DNA from: an uncultured Nitrospira sp.
Lineage (GTDB): Bacteria > Nitrospirota > Nitrospiria > Nitrospirales > Nitrospiraceae
NCBI GenBank assembly: GCA_902500995.1
Contig: CABVSR010000025.1
Span: 1-58,577 of the forward strand
Length of the DNA: 58,577 bases
Reading direction: 5' to 3'
The stretch's first letter is position 1, and each line of letters starts with the position of its first letter. This document shows positions 28,903-46,576 of this stretch, piece after piece. A program made the position numbers and the translations under genes. The notes under the pieces were generated by a model. The model worked only from the letters and a program-made list of their open reading frames with translations. It was not told the origin of the DNA and did no database searches.

Positions 28903-29895
28903 ATGACCGATCTGATCCGTTTGCAGCCCGAAGGGCTCGCTGGTCCCGGCAGCCGGTTCCACATCGATGCTTGGGGAAAGGCTGCCGTCAATCTGATCAC
29001 CCATGCCCATGGCGATCATGCCCGTGCAGGCAGTGCCGAATATTGGTGCGCGGAGCCCTGCGCGGCGATATTGCGCCACCGGCTGGGACCGGAGGCTCGC
29101 ATCCGACCGGTGCCGTACCGGGAGCCGGTGCGGCTCGGCGATTGTTGGATTTCGTTTCATCCTGCCGGACACATTCTGGGCTCGGCGCAAATACGTGTTG
29201 AACAGGCGTCTCGCGTCTGGGTCGTGACGGGCGATTACAAGCGCGACGCCGATCCCACCTGCGAATCGTTCGAGCCCGTGCCCTGCGATACGATGATCAC
29301 GGAAGCAACGTTCGGCTTGCCCATCTACCGCTGGGACTCCGCCCATGAGGTCACGCGGCGCATCGTCGAATGGTGGCAGCGTTGCCGCGAGGACAATGTG
29401 ACGGCGCTGCTGTTTTGTTACGCCCTGGGTAAGGCGCAACGCATTCTCGCCGAACTGGCGCGCTTCACGCGTGACGAGGTGCTGCTGCACGGAGCGGTGG
29501 CGTCCCTGACGCAGATCTACCGTGAGCAGGGCGTCGCGATGGTGCCGACCAGGCTGGTGAGTGATGCAGAAGGTCCTACCGAAGGGCGGCTGGTCCTGGC
29601 GCCTCCGTCCGCCCATCGCAGCCCTTGGATGAAGCGGTTCCGCCAGGTTTCCACCGCCTTTGCGTCGGGCTGGATGGCGGTGCGCGGCATCCGGCGACGG
29701 CGCGGGTATCACCGGGGATTTGTCTTATCCGACCATGCGGATTGGCGGGGGCTGCTGGAGACGGTCGAACAGTCGCGCGCGTCCCGCCTCTTGGTCACGC
29801 ACGGCAGCTCCGACACCCTGGCCCGTTATCTTCGCGAGGTGAAGGGCATGAAGGCTGAGGCCCTGACGACGCATTTCGGAGAGGAGGAAGCGTAG
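28903..29895 (+). CDS. DNA-ligase-associated exonuclease (metallo-beta-lactamase fold)
   Basis: 330 residues from the ATG at 28903. The beta-lactamase/beta-CASP metal motif HAHGDH is at residues 34-39, with FHPAGHILGSAQ and VTGDYKRDADP following, and FVLSDHADW near the C-terminus. The layout matches the putative exonuclease of the ligase-associated repair cluster, related to Artemis/SNM1/CPSF nucleases. The TAG stop overlaps the GTG start of the ligase by one base, so the four genes to 34828 are a tight operon for DNA end processing and joining. Confidence 0.88.
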   Translation: MTDLIRLQPEGLAGPGSRFHIDAWGKAAVNLITHAHGDHARAGSAEYWCAEPCAAILRHRLGPEARIRPVPYREPVRLGDCWISFHPAGHILGSAQIRVEQASRVWVVTGDYKRDADPTCESFEPVPCDTMITEATFGLPIYRWDSAHEVTRRIVEWWQRCREDNVTALLFCYALGKAQRILAELARFTRDEVLLHGAVASLTQIYREQGVAMVPTRLVSDAEGPTEGRLVLAPPSAHRSPWMKRFRQVSTAFASGWMAVRGIRRRRGYHRGFVLSDHADWRGLLETVEQSRASRLLVTHGSSDTLARYLREVKGMKAEALTTHFGEEEA

Positions 29896-31622
29896 TGCAG
29901 GCGTTTGCTGCCCTGTTCGAGCAACTCGACCAGACGACCGCGACCAACGACAAGGTGCGCATCATGGCGGACTTCTTCCGCTGGGAGGATCCGGAGACCT
30001 GCGCCTGGGTGCTCTATTTTCTCTCCGGGCAGAGACCCAAACAGATCGTGGGCTCGACCAAGTTGCGGCGCTGGGCGCAAGAAAAGGTCGGCTACCCCGA
30101 TTGGTTGATGGAGGAATCCTATGCGGCGGTGGGCGATACGGCAGAACTGATCGCGCTGCTGCTTGCTGCGGGTGAGCAGGCCGCCGATCGGGCGCCTTCA
30201 GAACCCCTGTCGTTGGGCGAATGGATGGAGCAGCGCATCCTCCCGCTTTCAGGGATGGACGATCACGCTCGCCGCGGGATGATTTTCCAATGGTGGAATG
30301 CACTCGAAGTCCGTGAAACATTCATCGTGAACAAGTTGCTCACCGGCTCGTTGCGGGTCGGTGTGTCCGAGACGCTGGTCTATCGAGCCCTGGCGGCCGT
30401 CTATTCTCTGCCCCCGGCGGTGATTGCGTCCCGGCTCGTAGGAACCTGGCAGCCCGGCGCTGAGTTCTTTGCCCGTCTGAGTGCGCCGGCGGAAGAGACA
30501 GCGGATGGGCGGAGCGCGGATGAGAACCTGTTGCCGCTTCCCTTCTGCTTGGCTGCGCCGATGGAGAGCGATCCGGAAGCGCTGGGCGAGGTGTCCGATT
30601 GGCAATGTGAATGGAAGTGGGATGGCATCCGTTGCCAAGTGGTGAAAGCCGGGTCGCGCATCGAAATCTGGTCACGCGGCGAAGAGCGGATCACCGGTTC
30701 GTTCCCGGACCTGACGCGAGTGCTGCTGGCTGTTCCCGGCGATTGGGTCATCGATGGAGAAATTGTCGCCGGCGATTGGCGTCGACCCGGCGCGTTTCAA
30801 TCCCTGCAGCAACGATTGAACCGCAAAAGACCGTCGCTGGCCCTGATCGCCTCCAGTCCCGTCTCGTTCCTCGCCTATGATTTGTTGCACATCGACGGCC
30901 AATCATGCCGCCACCGCCCTCTTGCAGAACGGCGGGCGATGCTCGAAGGGAAGCTGAAGGCCTTCCTCAGTGAATCGCTGGGGATCAGTCCGCTGCTGGA
31001 CCTGTCCTCATGGGAGCAGGCCAAACTCCTCCGCGAAAGGTCGCGAGTGGAAGGGGCGGAAGGTCTCATGCTGAAAGCGAAGGCCGGCGAGTATGTGGCA
31101 GGCCGCAAGCGCGGGGTCTGGTTCAAGTGGAAGATCGATCCGCTGGCAATCGATGCCGTGCTGACGGCCGCCCAACCGGGAACCGGCCGGCGCGCCTCGC
31201 TGTATACCGATTACACCTTTTCTGTCTGGGCTGAAGGCCGGCTCATCCCAGTGGCGAAGGCCTATTCGGGCCTCACGGATGAGGAGATTCGCGAACTGGA
31301 TGGCTGGATCCGCAAACATACGCGCGAGCGCTTCGGTCCCGTCCGCACGGTCGAGGCGCAACGGGTGTTCGAAATCGGGTTCGAAGGCATCAGCCGGAGC
31401 GAGCGGCACAAGTCCGGCTTCGCGCTGCGTTTTCCCCGCATTCTGCGCGAGCGAACGGACAAGCGGGTGGAGGATGCGGACCAGGTCGCCACGTTGGACA
31501 GCCTGATGGAATCGTTGGGCTCGCGAGGAGGCCAGGTGGCGCGCGCCAGGTCGGCACGTGCAGCCTCGGATAATCCCGAGCAATTGCAGTTCGATTTAGA
31601 AAGGGGCGACGCGACTTCATGA
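29895..31622 (+). CDS. ATP-dependent DNA ligase, Lhr-associated type
   Basis: 575 residues, GTG start. An N-terminal DNA-binding region (1-205) is followed by the adenylation domain with catalytic Lys241 in CEWKWDGIR, then IDGEIVAGDW, YDLLHIDG, EGLMLKAKAGEYVAGRK and WFKWKIDP, the ordered nucleotidyltransferase motifs. A C-terminal OB fold has YTFSVWAEGRLIPVAKAYSG. Seals nicks using ATP. It overlaps the helicase start by an ATGA, and the neighbours define it as the ligase of the Lhr-associated repair cluster rather than LigD of NHEJ (no Ku gene is nearby). Confidence 0.93.
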   Translation: MQAFAALFEQLDQTTATNDKVRIMADFFRWEDPETCAWVLYFLSGQRPKQIVGSTKLRRWAQEKVGYPDWLMEESYAAVGDTAELIALLLAAGEQAADRAPSEPLSLGEWMEQRILPLSGMDDHARRGMIFQWWNALEVRETFIVNKLLTGSLRVGVSETLVYRALAAVYSLPPAVIASRLVGTWQPGAEFFARLSAPAEETADGRSADENLLPLPFCLAAPMESDPEALGEVSDWQCEWKWDGIRCQVVKAGSRIEIWSRGEERITGSFPDLTRVLLAVPGDWVIDGEIVAGDWRRPGAFQSLQQRLNRKRPSLALIASSPVSFLAYDLLHIDGQSCRHRPLAERRAMLEGKLKAFLSESLGISPLLDLSSWEQAKLLRERSRVEGAEGLMLKAKAGEYVAGRKRGVWFKWKIDPLAIDAVLTAAQPGTGRRASLYTDYTFSVWAEGRLIPVAKAYSGLTDEEIRELDGWIRKHTRERFGPVRTVEAQRVFEIGFEGISRSERHKSGFALRFPRILRERTDKRVEDADQVATLDSLMESLGSRGGQVARARSARAASDNPEQLQFDLERGDATS

Positions 31623-34180
31623 GTCCCTCGGCTAAAGTCTTACGCGGCATTCAACGGCTCAATCGAACGCGGCCGCCTCGGCCGCGGCCGGATGCCGGGG
31701 AGCAAGCGCGGGTTCGTGCGCGAGTCTGGCCGGCGCTGTCGCGCGAGCAGGCGCAGGAGCAGTGGAACGACTGGTTCAGCCGCCAAGGGTGGACTCCTTT
31801 TCCATTTCAGACCGATGCCTGGCAAGCCTTCGAAGCAGGGCGCTCCGGCCTGGTGGCGGTGCCGACCGGGAGCGGGAAGACCTATGCGGCGGTCGGGGGA
31901 CCGCTTCTGAACTTGATCTCTCGTTCCATGCGCGGCCTCGATCCGGGACTCACGCTGCTGTACATCACGCCCCTCAAGGCCCTCGCGCGGGACATCGCGC
32001 AAGCCATTCAACGGCCGTTGGATGATCTGGGCTGGCCGATTGCCGTGGATCTCCGCACGGGCGATACCAGTCCGGCGGCGCGCCGGAAATTCAAGGAACA
32101 ACTGCCCCACGTCCTTGTGACGACGCCCGAGTCGTTGGCGATTCTGTTGACCGATCAAGGCTGGGAAGCTCGGATGCAGGGCGTGCAGGCGGTCGTGCTG
32201 GACGAGTGGCATGAGCTGATGGGCACGAAGCGAGGCAGCCTGCTCGAATTGACCCTGGCTCGACTTCGTTCGATCGCAAAGGAAGTCCGCGTCTGGGCGC
32301 TGTCCGCGACGATCGCCAACCTGGAAGAAGCCGCGTCGGTGGCCGTGGGAAGCGGCCATCACGCGGAGATCATTTGCGCGGACCTTCCACGGCAGATCCG
32401 CCTCCACTGCCTGCTTCCGGAATCCGTTCAGCGCTGCCCCTGGTTCGGCTATTCGGGATTGCACCTCCTGCCGGAAGTCCTCACGCAGATCGACGTCACG
32501 CGCAGCACATTGCTCTTTACCAACACCAGATCGCACGCGGAGCGCTGGTTTCAGGCGATCCTCGAGGCTAAGCCGGAATGGTCGTATCTGATGGCCCTCC
32601 ACCATGGTTCGTTGGATCAAGATGAACGGCAGCGGGTCGAAGCAGGGATCAAGAGCGGCAGCTTGCGATTGGTCGTCGCGACCTCATCGCTCGATCTCGG
32701 GGTGGATTTCCCGCCGGTTGAAAACGTCATTCAAATCGGGTCGGCCAAATCGATTACCCGCGCGATCCAACGGGCCGGGCGCGCGTTCCACAGGCCTGGG
32801 GAAGCGACGCTGGTGCAGCTCTGCCCGACCAACGTCATGGAGATTCTCGAAGCCTCGGCCCTGCGCGAGGGGATGCAGGACGGTGTGATGGAGGAGCGGA
32901 TCGCGCCGGCGAAGCCGCTCGACGTGCTGGTGCAGTGTCTGCTGAATGCGTCGTTCAACGAAGGATTCGATCCGGCCGATCTCTTTCGACAGATCCGATC
33001 CGCCCGGTCGTTTCGAACCGTCACGAATGAGGAATTCTCCTGGGCCCTGGAGTTTATTCGTTCCGGCGGAGCCCTGGCTTCCTATCCGGAGTTTCGTAAA
33101 GTGGAAGTCGTGGGAGGGCGCTACCGGTTTGTCTCGGCGGAGGCGTCCCGCCGGCACAAGATGAACATCGGCACGATTCTCTCAGACAGCGGCGTGACGG
33201 TGCAGGTCCGCGGCGGAGCCAGGCTCGGCCTGATCGATGAAATGTTCATCGCGAAGCTCCGGCCCGGAGATGTCATCCAGTTCGGCGGACGCACCGTCGA
33301 GTTTCTCCAGATGCGGGACATGACGGCCTATGTGAAACCCGCTCGCCGGCGGAGGCCGGTAGCGGCCGTCTGGAGCGGCACGATCCTTCCGCTCAGCGTC
33401 CAACTCTCCGCCTATCTGCGGCGCGAGGTGGATCGGCTCAGGCAGGCCGTGGAGGGCGCCGCCCCCCCGTCGCCAGAGATCCACGCGCTCCTGCCGATTG
33501 CCCGTGTGCAATCCTCCCGGTCGCGCATTCCTTCGGCGGCGCAGCAGCTGATCGAACGCTGCCGCACGGCGGAAGGGCACCACCTGTTCGTCTATACCTG
33601 GGAAGGCTGGAGCGTCAATGAAGGCCTGGGCCATCTGGCCGCCTATCGCTTGTCCCAGCTTCGCCCGAATACGATTGCCGTGTCAGCGACGAACTATGGC
33701 TTCGAGCTCCTCTCGACCGAGCCGCTCGGCAGCGAGCTGGAGATCCGCCGGGCGCTGACTCTCCTGGAAGGACTGGAGGAGGACATCCACGCCTCCCAGA
33801 ATTTTCCGGAGCTGGCCAAGCGGGCTTTTCGAGAGATCGCGCGGGTGGCTGGGCTCGTCTACCAGGGCACGCCTTCTGCGCGGAAAACGGCGCGGCATCT
33901 GCAGATGAGCGCCTCGCTGCTCTTTGATGTCTTCCGGCAGTACGAACCATCCCATCCGCTCTTGGCCCAGGCCTTTCGCGAGGTCAGCGAGCAACAGTTG
34001 CAGATCGACCGGTTGCGCGGCCTGATGCGTCGGATGGACGAGCAGGAGCTGTTGATCGTGCCCATCGCCCGGCTGACCCCCTTTGCCTTTCCTCTGTATG
34101 TGGAACGGATCAAGTCGAGGCTCTCCACCGAACAACTCGAACAGCGGGTGGCGCGTCTGCAACGGGAGGTCTTTCGCTGA
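31619..34180 (+). CDS. Ligase-associated DEXH-box helicase (Lhr-like)
   Basis: 853 residues. Walker A VAVPTGSGKTYA near residue 80, TPLKALARDIA, DEWHEL as the DEXH box, LSATIANLEEA (motif III), LLFTNTRSHAERW, VVATSSLDLGVDFPPVE and IQRAGRAFHRPGEA (motif VI). The C-terminal 350 residues are the Lhr-type winged-helix and beta-sheet extension. An ATP-driven 3'-5' translocase is expected. It starts with an ATGA overlap after the ligase and ends directly at the GTG of the phosphoesterase gene. Confidence 0.93.
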   Translation: MSPSAKVLRGIQRLNRTRPPRPRPDAGEQARVRARVWPALSREQAQEQWNDWFSRQGWTPFPFQTDAWQAFEAGRSGLVAVPTGSGKTYAAVGGPLLNLISRSMRGLDPGLTLLYITPLKALARDIAQAIQRPLDDLGWPIAVDLRTGDTSPAARRKFKEQLPHVLVTTPESLAILLTDQGWEARMQGVQAVVLDEWHELMGTKRGSLLELTLARLRSIAKEVRVWALSATIANLEEAASVAVGSGHHAEIICADLPRQIRLHCLLPESVQRCPWFGYSGLHLLPEVLTQIDVTRSTLLFTNTRSHAERWFQAILEAKPEWSYLMALHHGSLDQDERQRVEAGIKSGSLRLVVATSSLDLGVDFPPVENVIQIGSAKSITRAIQRAGRAFHRPGEATLVQLCPTNVMEILEASALREGMQDGVMEERIAPAKPLDVLVQCLLNASFNEGFDPADLFRQIRSARSFRTVTNEEFSWALEFIRSGGALASYPEFRKVEVVGGRYRFVSAEASRRHKMNIGTILSDSGVTVQVRGGARLGLIDEMFIAKLRPGDVIQFGGRTVEFLQMRDMTAYVKPARRRRPVAAVWSGTILPLSVQLSAYLRREVDRLRQAVEGAAPPSPEIHALLPIARVQSSRSRIPSAAQQLIERCRTAEGHHLFVYTWEGWSVNEGLGHLAAYRLSQLRPNTIAVSATNYGFELLSTEPLGSELEIRRALTLLEGLEEDIHASQNFPELAKRAFREIARVAGLVYQGTPSARKTARHLQMSASLLFDVFRQYEPSHPLLAQAFREVSEQQLQIDRLRGLMRRMDEQELLIVPIARLTPFAFPLYVERIKSRLSTEQLEQRVARLQREVFR

Positions 34181-34828
34181 GTGAGACTCACTGTTTGTGG
34201 CGAGCAGTTTGAGTTGCTTCCCGAGCGCGCGCTCTTCTGGCCGTCGCGCCGGCTGCTCGTCGTGGCGGACTGCCATCTCGGCAAGGCGGAGACCTTTCAG
34301 CAGCAGGGCTTCTGGCTGCCTTCGCAATCAAGACAGCAGGACCTCAGTCGACTCTCCGCGCTGGCGACGCGGGTAGGGGCCGAGGAGGTGCTCTTTTTGG
34401 GCGACCTGGTCCATGCATTGAGCGGAGTGACGGAGGCGGTCGTCGCGGAGTTCGCGCAATGGCTGCGGGAATTCGACGGATCGGTGCGGATCGTCCTGGG
34501 GAATCACGACGCCGGACTGGCCAAACGGTGGCCGGAGGAATGGCGCCGGGCCGCCCTCTGCGAGCGGGTGGATATCGAGCGATTCCGGTTCCAGCACCAT
34601 CTCGGCGGCGGGCAGGGGGAAGCGGGACTCTTCTATTGGGTGGGGCATGTTCATCCCATGATTCGGTTGGAAAGAGGGCCGGATCGACTCCGGCTTCCGG
34701 CCTTTGTGATCGGCTCATTCCGAGGGTTGCTCCCGGCCTTCTCCAGCATGAGCGGCGGGTATGATGTCTCGCCGCCGGCCGAGGAGCGGGTCTTCGTGAT
34801 CGGGGAAGGCCAGGTCTATGAAGTGTGA
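34181..34828 (+). CDS. pdeM: Ligase-associated DNA endonuclease/phosphoesterase PdeM
   Basis: 215 residues; the GTG start follows the helicase stop with no gap. Calcineurin-like metallophosphoesterase motifs are visible: VVADCHLGKAETFQ (Asp30, His32), FLGDLVHAL, VLGNHDAGL and YWVGHVHPMIRL. The family in this operon is known as a Mn-dependent phosphodiesterase acting in DNA damage response. Last gene of the four-gene repair operon. Confidence 0.9.
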   Translation: MRLTVCGEQFELLPERALFWPSRRLLVVADCHLGKAETFQQQGFWLPSQSRQQDLSRLSALATRVGAEEVLFLGDLVHALSGVTEAVVAEFAQWLREFDGSVRIVLGNHDAGLAKRWPEEWRRAALCERVDIERFRFQHHLGGGQGEAGLFYWVGHVHPMIRLERGPDRLRLPAFVIGSFRGLLPAFSSMSGGYDVSPPAEERVFVIGEGQVYEV

Positions 34829-34850
34829 ATGCGCGGTCGGCGCGACAGGT

Positions 34851-34879
34851 TTGACGCGCATCATCCGGCTCCCTATACT
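34851..34879 (+). promoter_or_regulatory. Strong sigma-70 promoter; likely leaderless transcript
   Basis: TTGACG and TATACT are separated by exactly 17 bases (10 of 12 consensus matches). The expected start of transcription, about 7 bases after the -10 box, coincides with the ATG at 34886. Confidence 0.6.
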
Positions 34880-34885
34880 TCGAGC

Positions 34886-35242
34886 ATGCTCCGGCTCACC
34901 TCTTCCCGGCTGATGGTCGTCGGCTGGCTTGCCGTCCTCCTCAGTCTCGCCACCGCCGCCGACTTCGTCGTCGACCTCGTGTTCGAGGTGCCCGATCTCG
35001 TTGCCGAGGCATCGGTGGAGCTCCCGGAAGGACTTCTCGACCCAGCTGAACATCTGTTGGTGTCCTCCGCTCGTTTCGCGGCCTTGTCACCGGACGCCTC
35101 CACGATTCTGCCCCTCGTCCAATGGTTCGGAAACGGAGGCCTGCTTCATGCAGTACTCTCCGCTCCATTTCCAGTGATTCCATTGAGTCATTCGCCGCCG
35201 CAACAAGCACCCGGCTCCTTCTTTATCCCTCTCCGCATTTGA
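34886..35242 (+). CDS. Small exported or membrane protein, unknown
   Basis: 118 residues from the ATG at 34886. The N-terminus (RLTSSRLMVVGWLAVLLSLATA) is a signal peptide or signal anchor; the rest is acidic then Pro-rich (LVAEASVELPEGLL, HSPPQQAPGSFFIP). No Shine-Dalgarno sequence is visible, but a strong promoter places the transcript start at or beside the ATG. I do not recognise the family; the Omp85-like gene follows 76 bases on. Confidence 0.5.
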   Translation: MLRLTSSRLMVVGWLAVLLSLATAADFVVDLVFEVPDLVAEASVELPEGLLDPAEHLLVSSARFAALSPDASTILPLVQWFGNGGLLHAVLSAPFPVIPLSHSPPQQAPGSFFIPLRI

Positions 35243-35318
35243 TTCGCATCCAGCGTCTCCATGCTCTTCGTGCGTCCTGCCGAAGGATGCGCAGGCTCTT
35301 TCTTGGAGGAGGCTGACC

Positions 35319-36620
35319 ATGCGTGTTGCCGAGTATCCCTGTGCCTGCTGGTGTCGCCTTCTTTCGGTCTGTGTTGCATGCTGTCTGATCGTGCTCTCGG
35401 TCCACGAAGGGTCGGTCGCAACCGCGGCGGACGGTCTAGCAGATGCCGGAACTGTCTTCGTCGAAACGGTCGACATTTCCGGATTGATCCATACGAAGCC
35501 GGAGACGCTTGTCCGGCTGCTGCCCCGGCCGCTTCCGGCCTCGTTCACCAAGGCTGAAATTGAAGAGTTCGAACGTCGCATTCGCAATCTCAGTCTTTTC
35601 GATCTGGTGCGTGTCGGCCGTGAGGGGGATCGTTTGACCCTGGCCGTCCAGGAAAAAATCACGCTGGCTCCGATCGTAGGATTCACGAGCGGCAGCAGCC
35701 TTCAGGATGTGAACGCGACCCTCGGCTTGGTCGAATACAACATCGGCGGAACGGGCACGCAACTCGGCGGGCAATTCAGTTACAGCCAGCGCGGCCCGAA
35801 CGTGGAGCTGTGGCTCGCGCAACATGCGCTCGAACCAGGCCGGTGGGCGAAGGAACTGAAGGGGGCCTATGCATCCAACGGCATTCGCTTTTCCGATTCA
35901 TCGACGTCCTGGACCAGGAACCGTCTCGGAGGAGAGTTTGAGATCAAGGGACCCTACGGCTACGGTTCCCCCCTGCGCTACGAAATCGTGCTCAGGACCT
36001 ACCACGAGTCGGTCCATGACGAAACGGGCGCGTCGAAGCCCCCGGTCGGCTACTATGTCGGCCTGATTCCTGAAATAACCTGGGACCGGTATCATTGGCA
36101 CGACCTGGTCCCCAAGGGCTACCGGATTACGCTGGAAGCTAAACCGGGATTCTTCTTCGGCGCCAATCAACAGCGGCATGAGATCGAGCTGCAATACCTA
36201 CAGGCAGTTCCGCTCGGTGCGACCACCGTCCTGATGGTCAACCAGGTGTTTGAAGCCGTCAATAACAGCGGCAATCCCAATCACAGTCTGCTCATCGGCA
36301 GCATCCGGGGGGTGCGGGGGCTTTCCGACAACCTCTATCGGACTCGCGCGCAAGGCTATGCCAACGTCGAACTGCGGCATGCCGTTCCGATCGCGGCGCG
36401 GTGGGCATTGCAAGGAGTCGTGTTTACAGATGTGGGAGGGTTTCAGTCGTTCGCGCCGGACGGCACAGTGAGGGATTGGAAGACGGCCGTCAATGCCGGG
36501 ACGGGCCTTCGCGTCGTCCCGACCTTCTTGTCCAACACCTTGTTGCGGGTGGATGCGGCCCGGCTCTTTTCGCCGGTCCAAAACTGGCTGGTTCAGGTCG
36601 GAATCACACAGTATTTCTAG
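35319..36620 (+). CDS. Omp85/BamA-like outer-membrane protein with a single POTRA
   Basis: 433 residues with GGAGGAGG before the ATG. After a signal peptide (ending near residue 38), one POTRA-like unit is seen (about 46-115: VDISGLIHTKPETLVRLL, LFDLVRVGREGDRLTLAV). The remainder is a beta barrel with the Bac_surface_Ag pattern (GLVEYNIGGTGTQLGGQFSY, GSIRGVRGLSDN, NVELRHAVPIAARWALQGVVF) and a C-terminal Phe as in proteins recognised by BamA. BamA proper has five POTRAs and about 800 residues, so this is a short relative that may export or insert a specific partner. It converges with the DUF2207 gene. Confidence 0.82.
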   Translation: MRVAEYPCACWCRLLSVCVACCLIVLSVHEGSVATAADGLADAGTVFVETVDISGLIHTKPETLVRLLPRPLPASFTKAEIEEFERRIRNLSLFDLVRVGREGDRLTLAVQEKITLAPIVGFTSGSSLQDVNATLGLVEYNIGGTGTQLGGQFSYSQRGPNVELWLAQHALEPGRWAKELKGAYASNGIRFSDSSTSWTRNRLGGEFEIKGPYGYGSPLRYEIVLRTYHESVHDETGASKPPVGYYVGLIPEITWDRYHWHDLVPKGYRITLEAKPGFFFGANQQRHEIELQYLQAVPLGATTVLMVNQVFEAVNNSGNPNHSLLIGSIRGVRGLSDNLYRTRAQGYANVELRHAVPIAARWALQGVVFTDVGGFQSFAPDGTVRDWKTAVNAGTGLRVVPTFLSNTLLRVDAARLFSPVQNWLVQVGITQYF

Positions 36621-36706
36621 AGAGGCCTGTCGATCGCACAGCAGCCGCGTGAACAGCAACGGCGGAGTATGGGGGGCCGCGGAGGTTCTCAGGTTCAGAG
36701 GGATCG

Positions 36707-38479
36707 TCAGAATCCCCGTCCTCCGCCGCCGCCGAAACCGCCGCCCGACGATCCGCCTCTGCTGAACCCGGAGCCGCCGGAACTGCGGGGCGCCGAGGTC
36801 ATCGTGGAACCGGTCCGTGACGCCATGTCGCTCATGCGGCTCGTGAATCCTCTGGTGTTGAAGTGCGCCAAGTCGCTGCCCTGGTACCAGGCCGGCGCCG
36901 TCAGAACGATCGACTCGAAGGCGCGCGCCCAATTCTTCTCCACGCCGAGGGCCATGGCATAGGGAAGAAATTTCTCGAACAGTTCGGGCGTCTTGATCAC
37001 CCGATCGAACCGGTCGGCCTCGACCCGCGCGAGAAATTCTTCAAACCCCAGCACGCCTTCCAGGGCCGCCGCGCCATGCTGTGTGCGAGCCGGCATGATG
37101 CGCCCGAACCCGGCGACGATCAGTCCCGAGAGCGTGCCGGACAGGAGGAAGGTCAACGGCGCGAGGCCCCAACGGTCGGCCAGCGCGGCGAGGCCGAAGG
37201 TCACAAGCATGCCGAAGATGAGGCCACCCACCAGATAACCCTGCTTCACGCGATCCGGTCGTTGACTGTAGTAGCGGCGAGTCTGCAAGGAATCAAAAAT
37301 CGCGTCGTGAATCGCCGGCAGAGATCTGTAGAACCGGTTTTCGAGTGCACTCAGCGCGACGTCGCCGGCCTCGCTGTCCTTGAACAGGGCTTCCAGCAGG
37401 AGCCGTTCGAAGGCGGGTAAGGCCGCCCAGTCCCCCCGCGGCTTCTCCGGATGAAACACATAATCCATGCTCGACCAGAGCCCGAACAGGTGCTCGGCCT
37501 TGCGCTCGGTGATCCGCAGGTACCCTCGCACCGCCAGGTCCACGAGGGTGGCCGTGAGATCGCGCGTGTCGGGGCTTTCATCCACGAGAGTGCCGACTTC
37601 CGCGGGTGTGAGTTGATCCGGTGGTTCATACCTGGCGGCGATCGGCCGGAGCCGCGGGTCCTTTCCCCTGGTGGACCAGAGGTAAGACATCACGACGAAC
37701 ACGAGCATCGGGATGGCCAAGGGCCAATTGCTCACGAGCGCGATGCGGGTATGGTCGATGAGGGTAGGGGCGGCCACCAGGCCCTTGTCCCAGCCGACCA
37801 CGGCGGTAAGCCCTTCACGAAAGCCGAGCGGGCGCGTCATCCTCATTTCGATGCCGGAGCCGAGAATCGTCACCGTCGCCGCCTGCTCGCGTGCGCCGTA
37901 AGCCCCCGTGAAGGCCTGGGCGCGTACGCCCGTCGCCTGCGGGGGCAGGATGATGCGCACGGAAGCCTGCTCGATGGGCACATCCCACTCATCCCCGGTG
38001 ACGTTCCAATACAACTCGTCGTGGTCTTCAAAGAACTTCAGCCCGTTGCGGACCAGGTATTTCAAGACAAACGTGCGGGTCGCGTCCGTCGCGCCGGGAA
38101 TCCAGATGCGGAAGTTCCGGTAGTGCCGCTCCCGGCCGCTCTCGAATCTGAGCGGAGTGCCCTGTTCGTCCGTGACCGAGACGCGATCCAGCAACAGCCT
38201 ATAGTTAAAGCCTTGCGGGGTGCGGTATTCGATGGGAATCAGCCGCTCGATGCCGTTCCATGATCCTTCGAAGCGTGGGCTGACGGTTTCCGTGACGAGC
38301 AACTCGCCGCCGGACAGGACTTGCAGCTCCACGTCGAAGCGGCTGAGCACGAATGATCGCGCATCCGCCGGAAGCGAGGAGCCGAAGACGAACAGGAAAA
38401 GGAAAGCCACGATGAGGCCGTGAGCGACAGGCCGTGACATTCGTCCGGCATGTCTCATCGGCCCGGCGGGGACGCCCAC
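36707..38479 (-). CDS. DUF2207 membrane protein
   Basis: 590 residues. The GTG start is separated by one base from the LemA stop; an ATG at 38458 is an alternative. A signal peptide (GLIVAFLFLFVFGSSLPADA) is followed by the DUF2207 outer domain (about 45-250: FDVELQVLSGGELLVTETVS, GIERLIPIEYRTPQG). One membrane helix (about 255-275), a cytosolic domain, two further helices (about 425-465) and a glycine-rich tail (SGGGFGGGGGRGF) complete it. DUF2207 and LemA genes are often neighbours; function is not established. Confidence 0.85.
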   Translation of the reverse strand: MGVPAGPMRHAGRMSRPVAHGLIVAFLFLFVFGSSLPADARSFVLSRFDVELQVLSGGELLVTETVSPRFEGSWNGIERLIPIEYRTPQGFNYRLLLDRVSVTDEQGTPLRFESGRERHYRNFRIWIPGATDATRTFVLKYLVRNGLKFFEDHDELYWNVTGDEWDVPIEQASVRIILPPQATGVRAQAFTGAYGAREQAATVTILGSGIEMRMTRPLGFREGLTAVVGWDKGLVAAPTLIDHTRIALVSNWPLAIPMLVFVVMSYLWSTRGKDPRLRPIAARYEPPDQLTPAEVGTLVDESPDTRDLTATLVDLAVRGYLRITERKAEHLFGLWSSMDYVFHPEKPRGDWAALPAFERLLLEALFKDSEAGDVALSALENRFYRSLPAIHDAIFDSLQTRRYYSQRPDRVKQGYLVGGLIFGMLVTFGLAALADRWGLAPLTFLLSGTLSGLIVAGFGRIMPARTQHGAAALEGVLGFEEFLARVEADRFDRVIKTPELFEKFLPYAMALGVEKNWARAFESIVLTAPAWYQGSDLAHFNTRGFTSRMSDMASRTGSTMTSAPRSSGGSGFSRGGSSGGGFGGGGGRGF

Positions 38480-38480
38480 G

Positions 38481-39029
38481 TTAGAACTGCACCTTCGGCG
38501 GCTCGCGTTGACTGGTCTCCGTCAGCTCGAAAAATTGGCGGCCGGTAAAGTGAAACCACCCGGCAATGAAGTTGGTGGGCACTTCTTGTGTTTTCGCATT
38601 GTAGTCGCGAACCACGGCGTTGTAATAGCGCCGGGCGTTCTGGAGGGCGTCTTCGATCTGGTTCAAGCTGCCTTGAAGTTGATTGAATGCCTCCACCGCC
38701 CGCAATTGCGGATAGGCTTCGGCCAGGGCGAAGAGGGATTTGAGCGACTGGCTGAGCTGATTTTCCGCCGCGGCCTTGTCTTGCGGACCCTGGGCCGACA
38801 TGGCCTTGGCCCGGGCGTTGATCACGGCCTCCAAGGCGCCCTTTTCATGGGTGGCGTAGGCCTTGACGGTTTCGACGAGGTTGGGGATCAGGTCGTAGCG
38901 GCGCTTCAACTGGACATCGATGTCGGCCCAGGCGCTGTCGCCGGCGGCGCGAAGCCGGACCAGCGAGTTATACATTCCGATACCGGTAAGCACCAGGAGA
39001 AGCAGCGCGGCAAGAATCATCCAGCCCAT
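38481..39029 (-). CDS. lemA: LemA family protein
   Basis: 182 residues from the Met at 39029 (AGGGAG upstream). One N-terminal helix (WMILAALLLLVLTGIGMYN) anchors it; the LemA signature follows: SAWADIDVQLKRRYDLIPNL, VETVKAYATHEKGALEAVIN, LKSLFALAEAYPQLRA and ARRYYNAVVRDYNAKTQEVP. The N-terminus would face outside and the helical bundle the periplasm. First gene of a two-gene unit with DUF2207. Confidence 0.92.
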   Translation of the reverse strand: MGWMILAALLLLVLTGIGMYNSLVRLRAAGDSAWADIDVQLKRRYDLIPNLVETVKAYATHEKGALEAVINARAKAMSAQGPQDKAAAENQLSQSLKSLFALAEAYPQLRAVEAFNQLQGSLNQIEDALQNARRYYNAVVRDYNAKTQEVPTNFIAGWFHFTGRQFFELTETSQREPPKVQF

Positions 39030-39342
39030 GGGTGGCTCCCTGTGAGATGAGGTGCGAACGATTCGGCGGATGATAACGTGACCGTCGAACCCTGTAAAGC
39101 AACGGAAGGACTTTCGACCGGCCGCCGGCATTCAGTTGCGTCTCGCTTCCGTCCGGAGGTCGTTGTATAATTCTCCTTCCGGTTCTCCTACCGCCTATTA
39201 CGTATACCGGATCCTGTGAGGCAGTTCTCCGGTCGGCGATCCAGGGAGACGAGACCATGCGTTCGCGACTTCGGTTCCAAGGGCCAACGCCCGTTTTCCT
39301 GCCGCATGCCGGCATGCAGCCTATCTGCGCGGAGGGAATGCC
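39030..39342. other. Divergent intergenic region, 313 bp
   Basis: Upstream regions of lemA (minus) and the large kinase gene (plus). A consensus -10 box TATAAT is at 39166-39171 on the plus strand, but no good -35 box sits 16-18 bases before it. No gene seen. Confidence 0.4.
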
Positions 39343-42300
39343 ATGAGCGCCGCACCGAGAGATGACATGGGGGAAGCACATCCAACCGTGCCTGCGCCAC
39401 CGGCTGTTCTGCTGGTGGACGAAGCTGGGGCCAATCTGGCGACGCTGCGCGACGCGGTGCGGAGCGAAGCGGTCGAGCTGCTGTACGCCCAGTCCGCCAC
39501 GGAAGGCTTTCACCTCCTGCGAGATCGCGAGGTGGCGCTCGCGGTCGTGAACCTCTGCCTCCCGGGGACAGACGGGTTCCGCTTCGCGGAGCTGTTGCGA
39601 GGCTCCGAGTGCACGCGCCATGTGCCGCTGATCTTCATCACGGCGAGCGGCGAGGAAGAAAAGCGCACCTTTCAGGGCTATGAGGCGGGAGCCGTGGACT
39701 ACTTGTATCTCCCGATCAATCCCGAGATGTTGCGCGGCAAGGTCCGGGTATTCCTCGATTTGAACCGGCAGCGGCAGGAATTGCTGCGGCAACGCGATGC
39801 CTTGCAGACGGCACTCGATGACCAGCAGCGGACCCAGGCGCAGTTGCAGGCCGGCGAAGAGCGGTACCGGCTTGCGTTGGCCGCCACGCGCGACGCCGTG
39901 TGGGTGTGGAACGTGGAAACCGACAGCCAGGTGTGGAACCAAGCCGGCGCCGACCTGTTCGGATGGACCGATATCGTCGAGCAGCCGCAGTCGGCGCAGT
40001 GGTGGGTCGATCGGGTACATCCGGAGGATCGTGATCGTGTGGGCCGAGTGTTTCACGCAGCGCTCGCTGATCCGTCGGTCACCCGCTGGGCGGACGAATA
40101 TCGGTTTCTCAAGCGCGATGGGAGTTACGCCTGGGTCCTGGATCGCGGGTACTTGGTGCGCGACGAGCGGGGCCTGGCCCTGCGCGCCGTCGGCGCCATG
40201 CAGGACATCAGCGAACGCAAGCGCGCCCAGGAAGTCTCCTCCCATCTCGCCGCCGTGGTCGGTTCGTCGTTCGATGCCATCGTGAGCCAAACTCTGGATG
40301 GTCTGGTCACCAGTTGGAATGCGGCGGCTGAACGCATGTTCGGTTACTCTGCCGCAGAGATGATCGGTCACACCGTCTACCGGCTCATCCCCCCCGAGTT
40401 ACAGAATGAAGAACCGCAGATCCTCGAACGGATATCACGCGGGGAAAGCATTCATCACTACGAGACCCTCCGCGTGACCAAGGACGGCCGGCGCCTAGAC
40501 CTGTCGTTGACCATTTCGCCGATCAAGGATTCCGAGGGCCGCATCACCGGCGTCTCCAAGATCGCGCGGGACGTGACGGAACAGACCAGGCAGCGGGCCG
40601 CGTTGAGTGAAAGCGAGGAACGGTTTCGCGCCCTGGCCGACCAGATGTCCCAGTTGGCCTGGATGATGGACGAAACCGGCTGGGTCTACTGGTTCAATCA
40701 GCGGTGGTATGAGTACACCGGCACGACGTTCGAAACCATGCAGGGATGGGGCTGGCAACAGGTGCACCATCCGGACCACCGGGAGCGCGTGATCGTCGGC
40801 AAACGTCGGTCGATCGAAACGGGCGAGCCCTGGGACGAAACCTTTCCCTTGCGCGGAAAGGACGGCGAGTACCGCTGGTTTCTGACGCGCGCGGTGCCGA
40901 TTCGCGACGGCCGGGGGCGCATCGTCCGCTGGTTCGGCACCAACACCGATATCACCGATCGCAAGCGAGCGGAGGAAGAATTGCGGGCGCGCGAGCGGCT
41001 GTTGAACGCCGTCTTTAAACAGCAGTTCGCCTTCAGCGCCCTGCTGACGACCGAGGGGCGAGTCGTGCGGATCAGCGACTCGGTGGCCCGCAACCATCAG
41101 GGATCGGCCCTGTCGCCGGAACAACTCGTCGGAAGCCGCTTCGTCGATGCGCCCTGGTGGCGGGACGAGCCGGCGACCCTGCAGGAATGGACGCGGCAGT
41201 TGGCCGAAGCGCCGGCCCATGCCGGTCCCGTGCGCGGCGAGGGCGCCTACCGATTGCCGGACGGTACCTGGCGCTATTCGCTGAATAGCGTGACTGCGCT
41301 ACGCGACGAGAAGGGCCAAGTGGAATATTTGCTGGCCGAAGGCGTGGACATCACGCCGCAGAAGCTGGCGGAGCGGGCCTTGCGCGAGAGTGAAACGCGG
41401 TTCCGTGAATTGGTGGACCGGTCGCCCTTCGGCATTTACGTGGTCGATGCGGAATTCCGCATCGCGCACATGAACGAGGCGGGGCAGCAGGGCGCATTCC
41501 ACAACGTGCGGCCGGTGATCGGGCGCGACTTCGGCGAGGCCATGCGCACGCTCTGGCCCGAGCCCGTGGCGGCTGAGATCATCGGATTGTTCCGCCGGAC
41601 GCTCGACACCGGAATCCCGTATCGATCGCGTGACTTTGTGAACCCGCGCGCCGACGTGGATCAAACGGAAGGCTACGAGTGGGAGCTGCACCGGCTGACG
41701 TTGCCGGACGGCCGGCACGGCGTCGTCTGTTACTACTACGATTCGACCAGGCTCAAGATGGCAGAGAGCGCTTTGCGCGAGAGCGGGGAGCGGTTGCGCA
41801 GCGCGATGGCGGCGGGCGACATGGGCGCCTGGGATATCGATCTCGCCACCGGCGCGGTCACCTGGGATGCCCAGCAGTATCACATTTTCGGATTATCGCC
41901 TGAGCGATCGCCCGTGGATATGGACGCCTTCTGGCGGCTCGTACATCCGGACGATCTGGAGCGGGCGAAACAGGCGGCTGCCGAGGCCGAGCGGAGCGGC
42001 CGGTTCGCGGCCGAGTTCCGGATCATCCGACCGGACGGCGGCGTCAGATGGATCGCCGGGCGCGGGGCCGTGGTCGCGCATGGCGGGAATGGCTCGCCCC
42101 GCATGATCGGCATCAATTACGATGTGACCGAACGGAAGCGGCATGAGTCGTTGTCCGCGGAGCAGCGACACTTGCTGGAACTGATCGCCACGAACCGGCC
42201 CATCGGGGAGTGCCTGGAGGCGCTGACAGGCGCGGTCACGCGCTTGGAGCCGAATGCCCGCGCGGCCTTGCTCACGGTGGATGCGGAGCGCTCCGCGATG

Positions 42301-43937: not shown

Positions 43938-43968
43938 TTGCGCAAGCCCCAGGGCGGGGGCTTATACT
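43938..43968 (+). promoter_or_regulatory. Possible promoter giving a leaderless transcript
   Basis: TATACT at 43963 ends 7 bases before the ATG at 43976, with TTGCGC upstream at a long 19-base spacing. No Shine-Dalgarno sequence precedes the ATG. Confidence 0.35.
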
Positions 43969-43975
43969 GGTTCCC

Positions 43976-46576
43976 ATGTCTCACACCGTCACAACGCCGG
44001 TGGATCTGCCCGAGTCGGATTACCGCTCGGCTTTGCTCCAGGTGGCGGAGGTCATCGCCACCCATCGCGATCTCCCCTCGCTCTTTCGCGATCTCGCCCA
44101 GCGCCTGCCTGCCGTCGCTTCCTTCGACTTCATCGGGCTCGTGCTCCACGATCAGACCAAGCAGGTCATGAAGGTGCATGTGCTGGAGACGGCCGGGGCG
44201 CAGGGCGTCACGAAGCCCCTCGATGGCATGGAAATTCCCATGGAGGAGTCCGCCAGCGGCTGGGTGTGGGAACACCAGCGGCCCTTGACGATCCCCTCCC
44301 TGGCCCACGAATCCCGGTACAAGCCCGGCATGAGCGCGCTCCTCAGTATCGGCGTCCAGTCCCTCTACCTCTGCCCCCTTACCACCGCCATGCGGCGTCT
44401 CGGCGCCATCGGGTTCGGCAGTGTGCGTCCCGAGGCGTTCAGTGACGGGGATGTAGAGTTTCTCAACCAGGTCGCCAAACTGGTGGCGGTGGCCGTGGAC
44501 AATGTGCTGCATCACCGGGCCTTGCGAGAGGAGAGGGACCGGCTGCAATTGTTGCTGGATGTGACGGAATCCATCGCCTCGCAGCGGGACCTGACCCTGC
44601 TGCTGGAAGACTTGGCGAAGCGGCTGCCCCAGGTGGTTCCGTTCGATTTCATCAATGCCGTGCTCCACGATCCGGCGCGCCAGGTCATGCGGTTGTGGCT
44701 GCTGGTTACCTCGGAGCCATCGACCATCCATCCGGGTCTCGAAACGCCCATCGAGGAATCGCCCGGCGGCTTGGTGTGGAAAACCCAGCAACCGTTGACG
44801 GTGCACGATGTGGAGCAGGAGACTCGTTTCCCCGGCTTGATGGCGCTGTTCCGGGAAAACGGCGTGCGGTCGTTTTGTGTCGTCCCGCTCACGACGGCGC
44901 AACGCCGGCTGGGCGCCATGGGGTTCGGCAGCCTCCAGCCGCGGGTCTATGAGAAACACGAAATTGCCCTCATGCAGCAGGTGGCCAAGCAGGTGGCGGT
45001 GGCCCTCGACAATGCGCTCAACGGCGAGATGGCCCTGACCTATCAGGGAGAACTCACGCGGGAACGCGACCGCCAGCGCCTGCTGCTCGAAGTCAACAAC
45101 GCGGTGGTGTCCCACCTGGATCTCGATCAGCTGTTTCCTGCGGTGAGCGCCTGTTTGCGCCGGGTCATTCAGCACGACGGCTCGAGCCTGCTGCTCTGCA
45201 ATGAGGAGACGGGGCGGTGGCGCATTCACGTGCTGGATTTCGACCGCAATGAAAGCTTCATCGAGGAAGGGCGGATCGAAGAGAGTTCGCGTTCGCCTTC
45301 CTGCCAGGCGATCACGACCGGACAAGCGGCCGTGTTCGGGGAAAATGAGCTCCGCGCCATGGCCGCCTCTTCTCCTATGGCGCAGGAACTGGTGGACTTC
45401 GGCGCCAAGTCGTTTTGTTCCCTGCCGTTGCTATCGAACCGGCATAGCCTCGGCGCCTTGAATGTCTGCCGGCGCTGCGAGGGCGGATTCAGCCCGGAGG
45501 ATGTGCAACTCCTCGCGCAGGTGGCGCAGCAGGTCGCCATCGCCGTGGACAACGCGCTCGCCTTCCGGGAGATCGCCGCGCTGAAGGACAAACTCGCCAA
45601 AGAGAAGGTCTATCTCGAAGAAGAAATCCAGACGGCCTACAACTTCGAGGAAATCGTCGGCGACAGCCGGGTCTTGGAGCAGGTGCTCAAGCAGGTTCAG
45701 ACCGTCGCAGCCACCGATTCCACGGTGCTCATCCTCGGTGAAACCGGCAGCGGGAAAGAGTTGATCGCGCGCGCCTTGCACAATCTCAGCACCAGGAAAG
45801 AACGCACCTTCGTCAAGCTGAACTGCGCCGCCATTCCCACCGGCCTGCTGGAGAGCGAACTGTTCGGGCACGAGAAGGGCGCCTTTACGGGGGCCATTGC
45901 GACGAAGATCGGGCGGTTCGAATTGGCCGACGGCGGGACGATTTTTCTGGATGAGGTGGGGGAAATCCCGTTGGAACTCCAAGTAAAGCTCTTGCGCGTG
46001 TTGCAGGAGCAGGAGTTCGAGCGGCTCGGCAGCACGCGCACCATTCGCGTCAATGTCCGGGTGATTGCCGCGACCAACCGGGATCTCGACCAGATGGTCG
46101 AACAGCAGAAGTTTCGGGGCGATTTGTACTACCGGCTGAAAGTCTTCCCCATTATCATGCCGCCTTTGCGCGAACGGGCGGAGGATGTGCCCGCACTCGT
46201 GCGCCATTTCGTGCAAAAATTTTCGGCGCGGATGAAAAAGCGGATTGAAACCGTTCCGACGGAGGCGATGCAGGCGCTCCGACTGTATCCCTGGCCCGGC
46301 AATGTCCGGGAGCTGGAGAATTTCATCGAACGTGCGGTGATTCTCTCGTCCGGATCGGAACTGTTCGTGCCCACGGCGGAATTGAAACGACCGTCACCCC
46401 TGCCCAACGGGTCGGCCACCACGCTCGAGGCAGCGGAGCGCGACCATATCGTCAAGGCGCTCCAGGACACGCAGTGGGTCATCGGCGGCTCGTCAGGCGC
46501 CGCCGCCCGCTTGGGCATGAAGCGCACCACCCTGCAATCGAAGATGCAAAAACTCGGCATCACCCGTCCCCGGTAG
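43976..46576 (+). CDS. Sigma-54-dependent activator with three GAF domains (FhlA-like)
   Basis: 866 residues. Three GAF domains (about 10-190, 195-360, 380-545); the first two are clearly duplicates (RDLxxLxxDLAxRLPxV, [50 protein letters not shown]). A short coiled linker leads to the AAA+ domain: Walker A GETGSGKE near 588, the sigma-54 contact loop GAFTGA near 635, Walker [12 protein letters not shown], and the arginine-finger region. A Fis-type helix-turn-helix ([20 protein letters not shown]) ends the protein. It has no receiver domain, so control is by ligands of the GAF domains. Its targets are unknown. Confidence 0.95.

Follow-up and report, generated by a model that had tools for sequence, protein, structure and literature searches.

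A predicted leaderless small gene and a conserved intercistronic hairpin ahead of an Omp85-like gene in Nitrospira

A conserved two-gene unit was identified in an uncultured Nitrospira sp. (assembly GCA_902500995.1, contig CABVSR010000025.1, positions 1 to 58,577; this whole stretch of 58,577 nucleotides is referred to here as the window). A sigma-70-type promoter lies six bases ahead of the ATG of a small gene that lacks a Shine-Dalgarno (SD) sequence and evolves under protein-level selection, and a covarying hairpin lies between this gene and a linked gene for an Omp85-like outer-membrane protein. The explanation that we consider likely as a whole is that the first cistron is leaderless and that the second is initiated from an SD under the control of the hairpin. 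The promoter would start a bicistronic mRNA at, or within 1-2 nt of, the A of the ATG at 34886, so that the first cistron, encoding a membrane-anchored or exported protein of 118 amino acids, would be leaderless and would be initiated by ribosomes binding the 5'-terminal AUG. The Omp85-like cistron at 35319 would be initiated from a strong SD, which the conserved hairpin is predicted to fold onto bases just after the stop codon of the first cistron; with its SD folded back in this way, translation of the Omp85-like protein would probably be gated, and the simplest way to open the gate would be the passage of ribosomes to the end of the leaderless cistron.

The promoter and the predicted transcript start

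The promoter consists of a -35 element, TTGACG (34851-34856), and a -10 element, TATACT (34874-34879), followed by a six-nucleotide discriminator, TCGAGC (34880-34885), and by the ATG whose A, at 34886, is the predicted transcript start; all of these features lie on the forward strand. The first-pass annotation had described the site as TTGACG-N17-TATACT directly ahead of an ATG without an SD. Both observations were confirmed, the pattern being exact at 34851-34879 and the sequence ahead of the ATG containing nothing that resembles an SD core. With hexamers near TTGACA and TATAAT and a 17-nt spacer within the 16-18 nt expected of sigma-70-type promoters, the site matches at 10 of 12 positions. 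In the 3.97-Mb genome this exact pattern is unique. When 30000-40000 was scanned for sigma-70 promoters, four promoter-like sites were returned, compared with 1.5 +/- 1.2 in shuffled sequences, and the site at 34851-34879 shares the best score with one other. The real window holds one case of the full arrangement, defined as at least 10 of 12 promoter matches plus an ATG 5-7 nt after the -10 element; among 40 windows generated by a first-order Markov model, three had it (mean 0.075).

The sequence marks of a leaderless gene, namely a -10 element placed for transcription from the start codon and the lack of an SD, are both present here, with a spacing of 6 nt. Because the promoter is so close, the mRNA of the small gene probably begins at the start codon, and we regard the predicted 5' end and leaderless translation as highly likely from the sequences compared here. 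Across the family, the first 40 nt of the gene are on average looser than internal stretches (-5.5 vs. -9.0), and those of the window's own gene (-9.1 kcal/mol) are no looser than its internal stretches.

The small protein

The small gene (34886-35242, forward strand) encodes 118 amino acids with an N-terminal hydrophobic helix. The AlphaFold model contains a single confident helix (residues 2-34), the rest being poor (mean pLDDT 64.5), and the protein has no match in Pfam, NCBIfam or PDB. A first search detected it in 14 of 61 genomes, counting that of the window itself, and a profile search in 33 of the 175 genomes of the family. The dN/dS ratio of the frame is 0.28-0.51 in the 22 closest pairs, and therefore the small ORF encodes a protein; invariant residues and the C-terminal end are conserved across genera.

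Conservation of the promoter and its spacing

Thirty loci of the Nitrospira family, the window included, were tabulated from the 33 genomes bearing homologues (G036, G195 and G196 were left out), and the Omp85-like gene lies downstream of the small gene in 25 of them. In 23 of these 25 linked loci, the gap between the end of the -10 element and the small-gene start is 6 nt (4 loci) or 7 nt (19 loci), where the start in the second set of loci was taken as the in-frame ATG or GTG with TANNNT 6 or 7 nt upstream, when present; in six loci of that set the profile match begins at the chosen codon, with no promoter criterion applied. An SD upstream of the small gene is absent from all 23 short-spaced loci, whose start codon is ATG in 22 and GTG in one (L024). 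In a distance control, in-frame starts at other distances were rare, secondary internal ATGs excepted, and several homologues carry additional in-frame ATGs 9-18 nt inside the gene. The elements themselves are also kept: TTGACA/G-N17-TATA-T is found in 12 of 13 homologous loci in the first set of relatives. In 11 others of the 25 linked loci, mostly from other genera, the -10 element has a TG ahead of it instead, the -10-to-start spacing is unchanged and the element is presumably an extended -10. The conserved spacing in the Omp85-linked homologues supports the leaderless mRNA that the first-pass annotation had predicted.

The upstream neighbours differ among relatives and often have the opposite orientation, with the promoter still kept. 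Because these genes vary, the promoter is taken to travel with the two-gene unit. Upstream in the window, genes for an ATP-dependent DNA ligase, an Lhr-type helicase and PdeM (ligase-associated DNA damage response endonuclease) lie in a row at 29895-34828.

The two remaining linked loci, L026 and L027, have the -10 element 27 nt before the start, and outer-stem bases of their intercistronic hairpin are changed on both arms; judged from these changes, this lineage seems to have gained a leader and kept the hairpin. Five loci (L025, L090, L091, L093 and L094) carry small-protein homologues with neither the Omp85-like gene nor the leaderless-type promoter. L025 (genome G030) has an SD before the small-gene start and a different gene downstream. 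At L095, the ATG nearest the promoter and the homologous stretch lie in different frames, which points to a frameshift or an assembly error.

The Omp85-like second gene

The second gene (35319-36620, forward strand) encodes a 433-residue Omp85-like protein with a POTRA region and a beta barrel. PDB profile searches gave hits to BamA (best 2.2e-07), and Pfam searches of 12 members found Omp85 in 10 and POTRA in eight. Foldseek placed BamA and TamA as the best folds (best 8.2e-15) for a low-confidence model (mean pLDDT 57.8). The profile, Pfam and Foldseek evidence is consistent with the POTRA plus 16-strand barrel architecture of the Omp85 superfamily and with a likeness to BamA and TamA in profile and fold; unlike these proteins, the Nitrospira protein has only 433 amino acids and one POTRA-like region, and it falls well short of the score cut-offs for the BamA and Omp85 subfamilies.

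The gene is preceded by the SD GGAGGAGG (35305-35312, forward strand), and all 25 linked loci have an SD core at the Omp85-like start, these starts having been chosen in the 30-locus table as starts with an SD core upstream. The sigma-70 scan of 30000-40000 found no promoter-like site between the two genes. Because no such site intervenes and the pair occurs together in most of the tabulated loci, the transcript predicted to start at 34886 very probably extends into the Omp85-like gene.

The intercistronic RNA element

In all 25 loci, 77-93 nt separate the stop of the small ORF from the start of the Omp85-like gene. A covarying RNA element with no match in Rfam, in which the SD is predicted to pair with the stretch just after the small-gene stop, is newly found in this interval (35240-35318 in the window, forward strand). 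The 5' (anti-SD) arm of its outer stem lies at 35251-35261 and an inner hairpin at 35268-35294 (both forward strand). When 12 loci were folded singly, the inner hairpin formed, and in most of them so did the outer stem, in which the SD and start of the Omp85-like gene pair with bases located about 10-20 nt past the stop.

The consensus structure was drawn from folds of the same sequences that were later tested, in a MAFFT alignment not fitted to structure; under it, 85.2% of cells are paired, compared with 77.8% in shuffles and 38-45% for slid partners. Both-side changes occur in 12 of 19 pairs, compared with 6.3 in shuffles, and none of 500 shuffles, which ignore relatedness, reaches this number. 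Such changes affect all nine consensus pairs of the inner hairpin and three of the 10 outer-stem pairs; low variation in the outer stem is expected if its SD side is fixed. RNAalifold alone predicts the inner hairpin only. In an alignment-free calculation, the probability that the SD pairs with nt 7-26 beyond the stop exceeded 0.5 in all but one of the 25 loci and averaged 0.89 (vs. 0.21 in shuffles). Pairing of the SD with any partner was 0.94, compared with 0.82 in shuffles, so the specificity lies in the partner only. The folding energy of the window element, taken as a single sequence, is unremarkable (z -0.86). Conserved pairing of the SD together with support from covariation, the features expected of an SD-sequestering element, was found.

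A covariance model built from the 25 loci recovers its own 25, as it must, and gave no further match in 286,770 bases, which included the five loci lacking the Omp85-like gene. Rfam searches found nothing in 34000-36000 with E values of up to 1 allowed, and nothing in four loci at a limit of 0.1; an Rfam riboswitch or leader was set aside on this ground.

Short promoter-to-ATG spacing in the genome and the phylum

The window's own genome contains 103 matches to TTGAC-N17-19-TANNNT-N4-24-ATG, compared with 25 for the reversed pattern, and the distances peak at 5-7 nt (31 among the 100 matches listed). Frames of at least 60 amino acids are opened by 20 of 30 short-spaced sites, vs. 43% for random ATGs (p = 0.007), a moderate separation; 13 of these 20 frames contain a Pfam domain. 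Of 61 genomes (the window's own and 60 relatives), 57 have more matches of the 5-7 nt form than of the 12-14 nt form, with genus totals of 925 and 289; the same holds for all 78 genomes of a phylum set with completeness of at least 90%, with totals of 2780 and 1254. Some genera of the order (f3/g15, g16, g17, g19 and f4/g12) show little or no excess, with a ratio of 0.8-1.2. For TATAMT without a -35 element, no clear excess was seen 6-7 nt before ATG (21 sites, vs. 17 at 13-14 nt and 16 in the reversed control).

The same spacing recurs at unrelated genes. It was found in all 24 genus loci read (a 25th is cut by a contig end) of a gene which, from its sequence, we take to be galU, and in all 23 genus loci read of a branched-chain-aminotransferase-like gene, which we take to be ilvE-like; Pfam assigns the two a nucleotidyl transferase and an aminotransferase class IV domain, respectively. 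In another family, the galU spacing is 8-9 nt in four of five loci, and among seven aminotransferase loci read outside the genus, three have the short spacing with GTG and four lack it. The identical spacing at these genes and the 5-7 nt peak in the genome-wide histogram lend further support to the leaderless-mRNA prediction. A second leaderless-type candidate was noticed in the window at 43963-43978, where TATACT lies 7 nt before an ATG at 43976 that opens an 866-aa frame; this looks like a GAF/sigma-54-type regulator, a reading that is our assumption.

Alternative explanations

Three other readings of the start region were weighed against a leaderless start at 34886. The small gene could be read from an in-frame ATG further upstream, at 34829, on read-through mRNA of the ligase-helicase-pdeM genes, the promoter-like site then being incidental. 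The stop TGA of pdeM abuts this ATG and the open frame would yield 137 amino acids; however, the upstream frames of relatives show neither a conserved protein nor a conserved Met, and the promoter is kept where the upstream genes differ and, in many relatives, are reversed, so we consider this reading very improbable. Equally small is the probability that the mRNA starts near 34886 with the small ORF as an untranslated leader and serves the Omp85-like gene only, as might be thought from the sole SD belonging to that gene and from a small protein that matches nothing in Pfam, NCBIfam or PDB; this was set aside on the dN/dS values, and the invariant residues and the C-terminal end conserved across genera also argue against it. 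Slightly more room, at a probability that is still low, is left for a short leader, with a transcript start elsewhere or initiation at an internal ATG such as 34913. Further in-frame ATGs do exist inside the gene in the window and in several relatives, and two relatives have a 27-nt leader, but the -10-adjacent ATG is the only start common to all 23 short-spaced loci, one GTG excepted, and the internal ATG in the window has no SD. 

The function of the hairpin is a more even contest. Instead of gating translation in dependence on the first cistron, it may serve in transcription attenuation, in mRNA stability or as a site bound by a protein or ligand, and we give this a considerable, although minority, share of the probability. 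T-rich stretches follow the inner hairpin in some loci, and static folding with 12-21 nt after the stop blocked, as by a stalled ribosome, freed the SD in none of the 25 loci. Simple coupling was therefore not reproduced, and any coupling would have to rely on active unwinding or on a regulator. Against a function other than gating, the bases that the element pairs are specifically those of the Omp85-like SD and start, and in the window the scan called no terminator-like site there. On balance, gating of the Omp85-like SD by the hairpin is somewhat favoured, and the coupling of Omp85-like translation to the first cistron is put forward tentatively, at a little less than even probability.

Comparison with known systems and significance

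TA-led leaderless bacterial genes have been described, in the available part of the report, as lacking an SD and having TANNNT some 12 bp ahead of their start codon (Zheng et al., 2011; PMC3160421). The Nitrospira small gene resembles them in its -10-type box near the start and missing SD, read as leaderless, and differs in having a clear -35 element as well; Nitrospirae are not named among the groups with leaderless genes in that part of the text (PMC3160421). In Deinococcus-Thermus, according to the passages available, a -10 element directly before the start codon yields leaderless mRNAs phylum-wide and is reported to be sufficient alone (PMC12340547). The conserved adjoining of the -10 region and start codon is shared with the Nitrospira loci; unlike the situation excerpted there, TATAMT without a -35 element is not in excess here and TTGAC-linked sites are (PMC12340547).

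For the two-cistron arrangement, E. coli uORFs with a 5'-terminal AUG ahead of SD-led genes, which affect the downstream cistron as far as the accessible text describes them, share the predicted 5'-terminal AUG frame before an SD-led cistron (PMC4965119). Unlike those uORFs, the first frame of the Nitrospira unit encodes 118 amino acids that are conserved as a protein, and the SD of its second cistron is paired, in a covarying hairpin, with the end of the first (PMC4965119). The M. tuberculosis PPE2 system, in the portion of the source at hand, requires a translated uORF and involves a B12 riboswitch (PMC11260477); a link between upstream translation and the downstream cistron through RNA structure may be common to both, and unlike that riboswitch the Nitrospira element has no Rfam match (PMC11260477).

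The first-pass annotation had also remarked that leaderless translation is little studied in this phylum, consistent with a search of one open-access library, in whose listings for Nitrospira, Nitrospirota, Nitrospirae and Leptospirillum no paper dealt with leaderless mRNAs of the phylum; the one paper with Nitrospira in its title has the word leaderless in a reference only. As a broader and more speculative proposal, which we hold with low confidence, leaderless initiation may be a phylum-wide working mode in Nitrospirota that includes core metabolic genes; the operon would join a leaderless cistron to a hairpin-gated SD cistron, and the cell's ratio of leaderless to SD-type initiation would set the amount of Omp85-like protein.

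Nitrospira are major nitrite oxidizers and include the comammox bacteria, and their mRNA starts are hardly described in the searchable literature. If leaderless starts are common, many annotated starts and promoter models in the phylum would need revision, and the operon offers a natural test of a leaderless cistron controlling an SD-led one through an RNA element outside Rfam.
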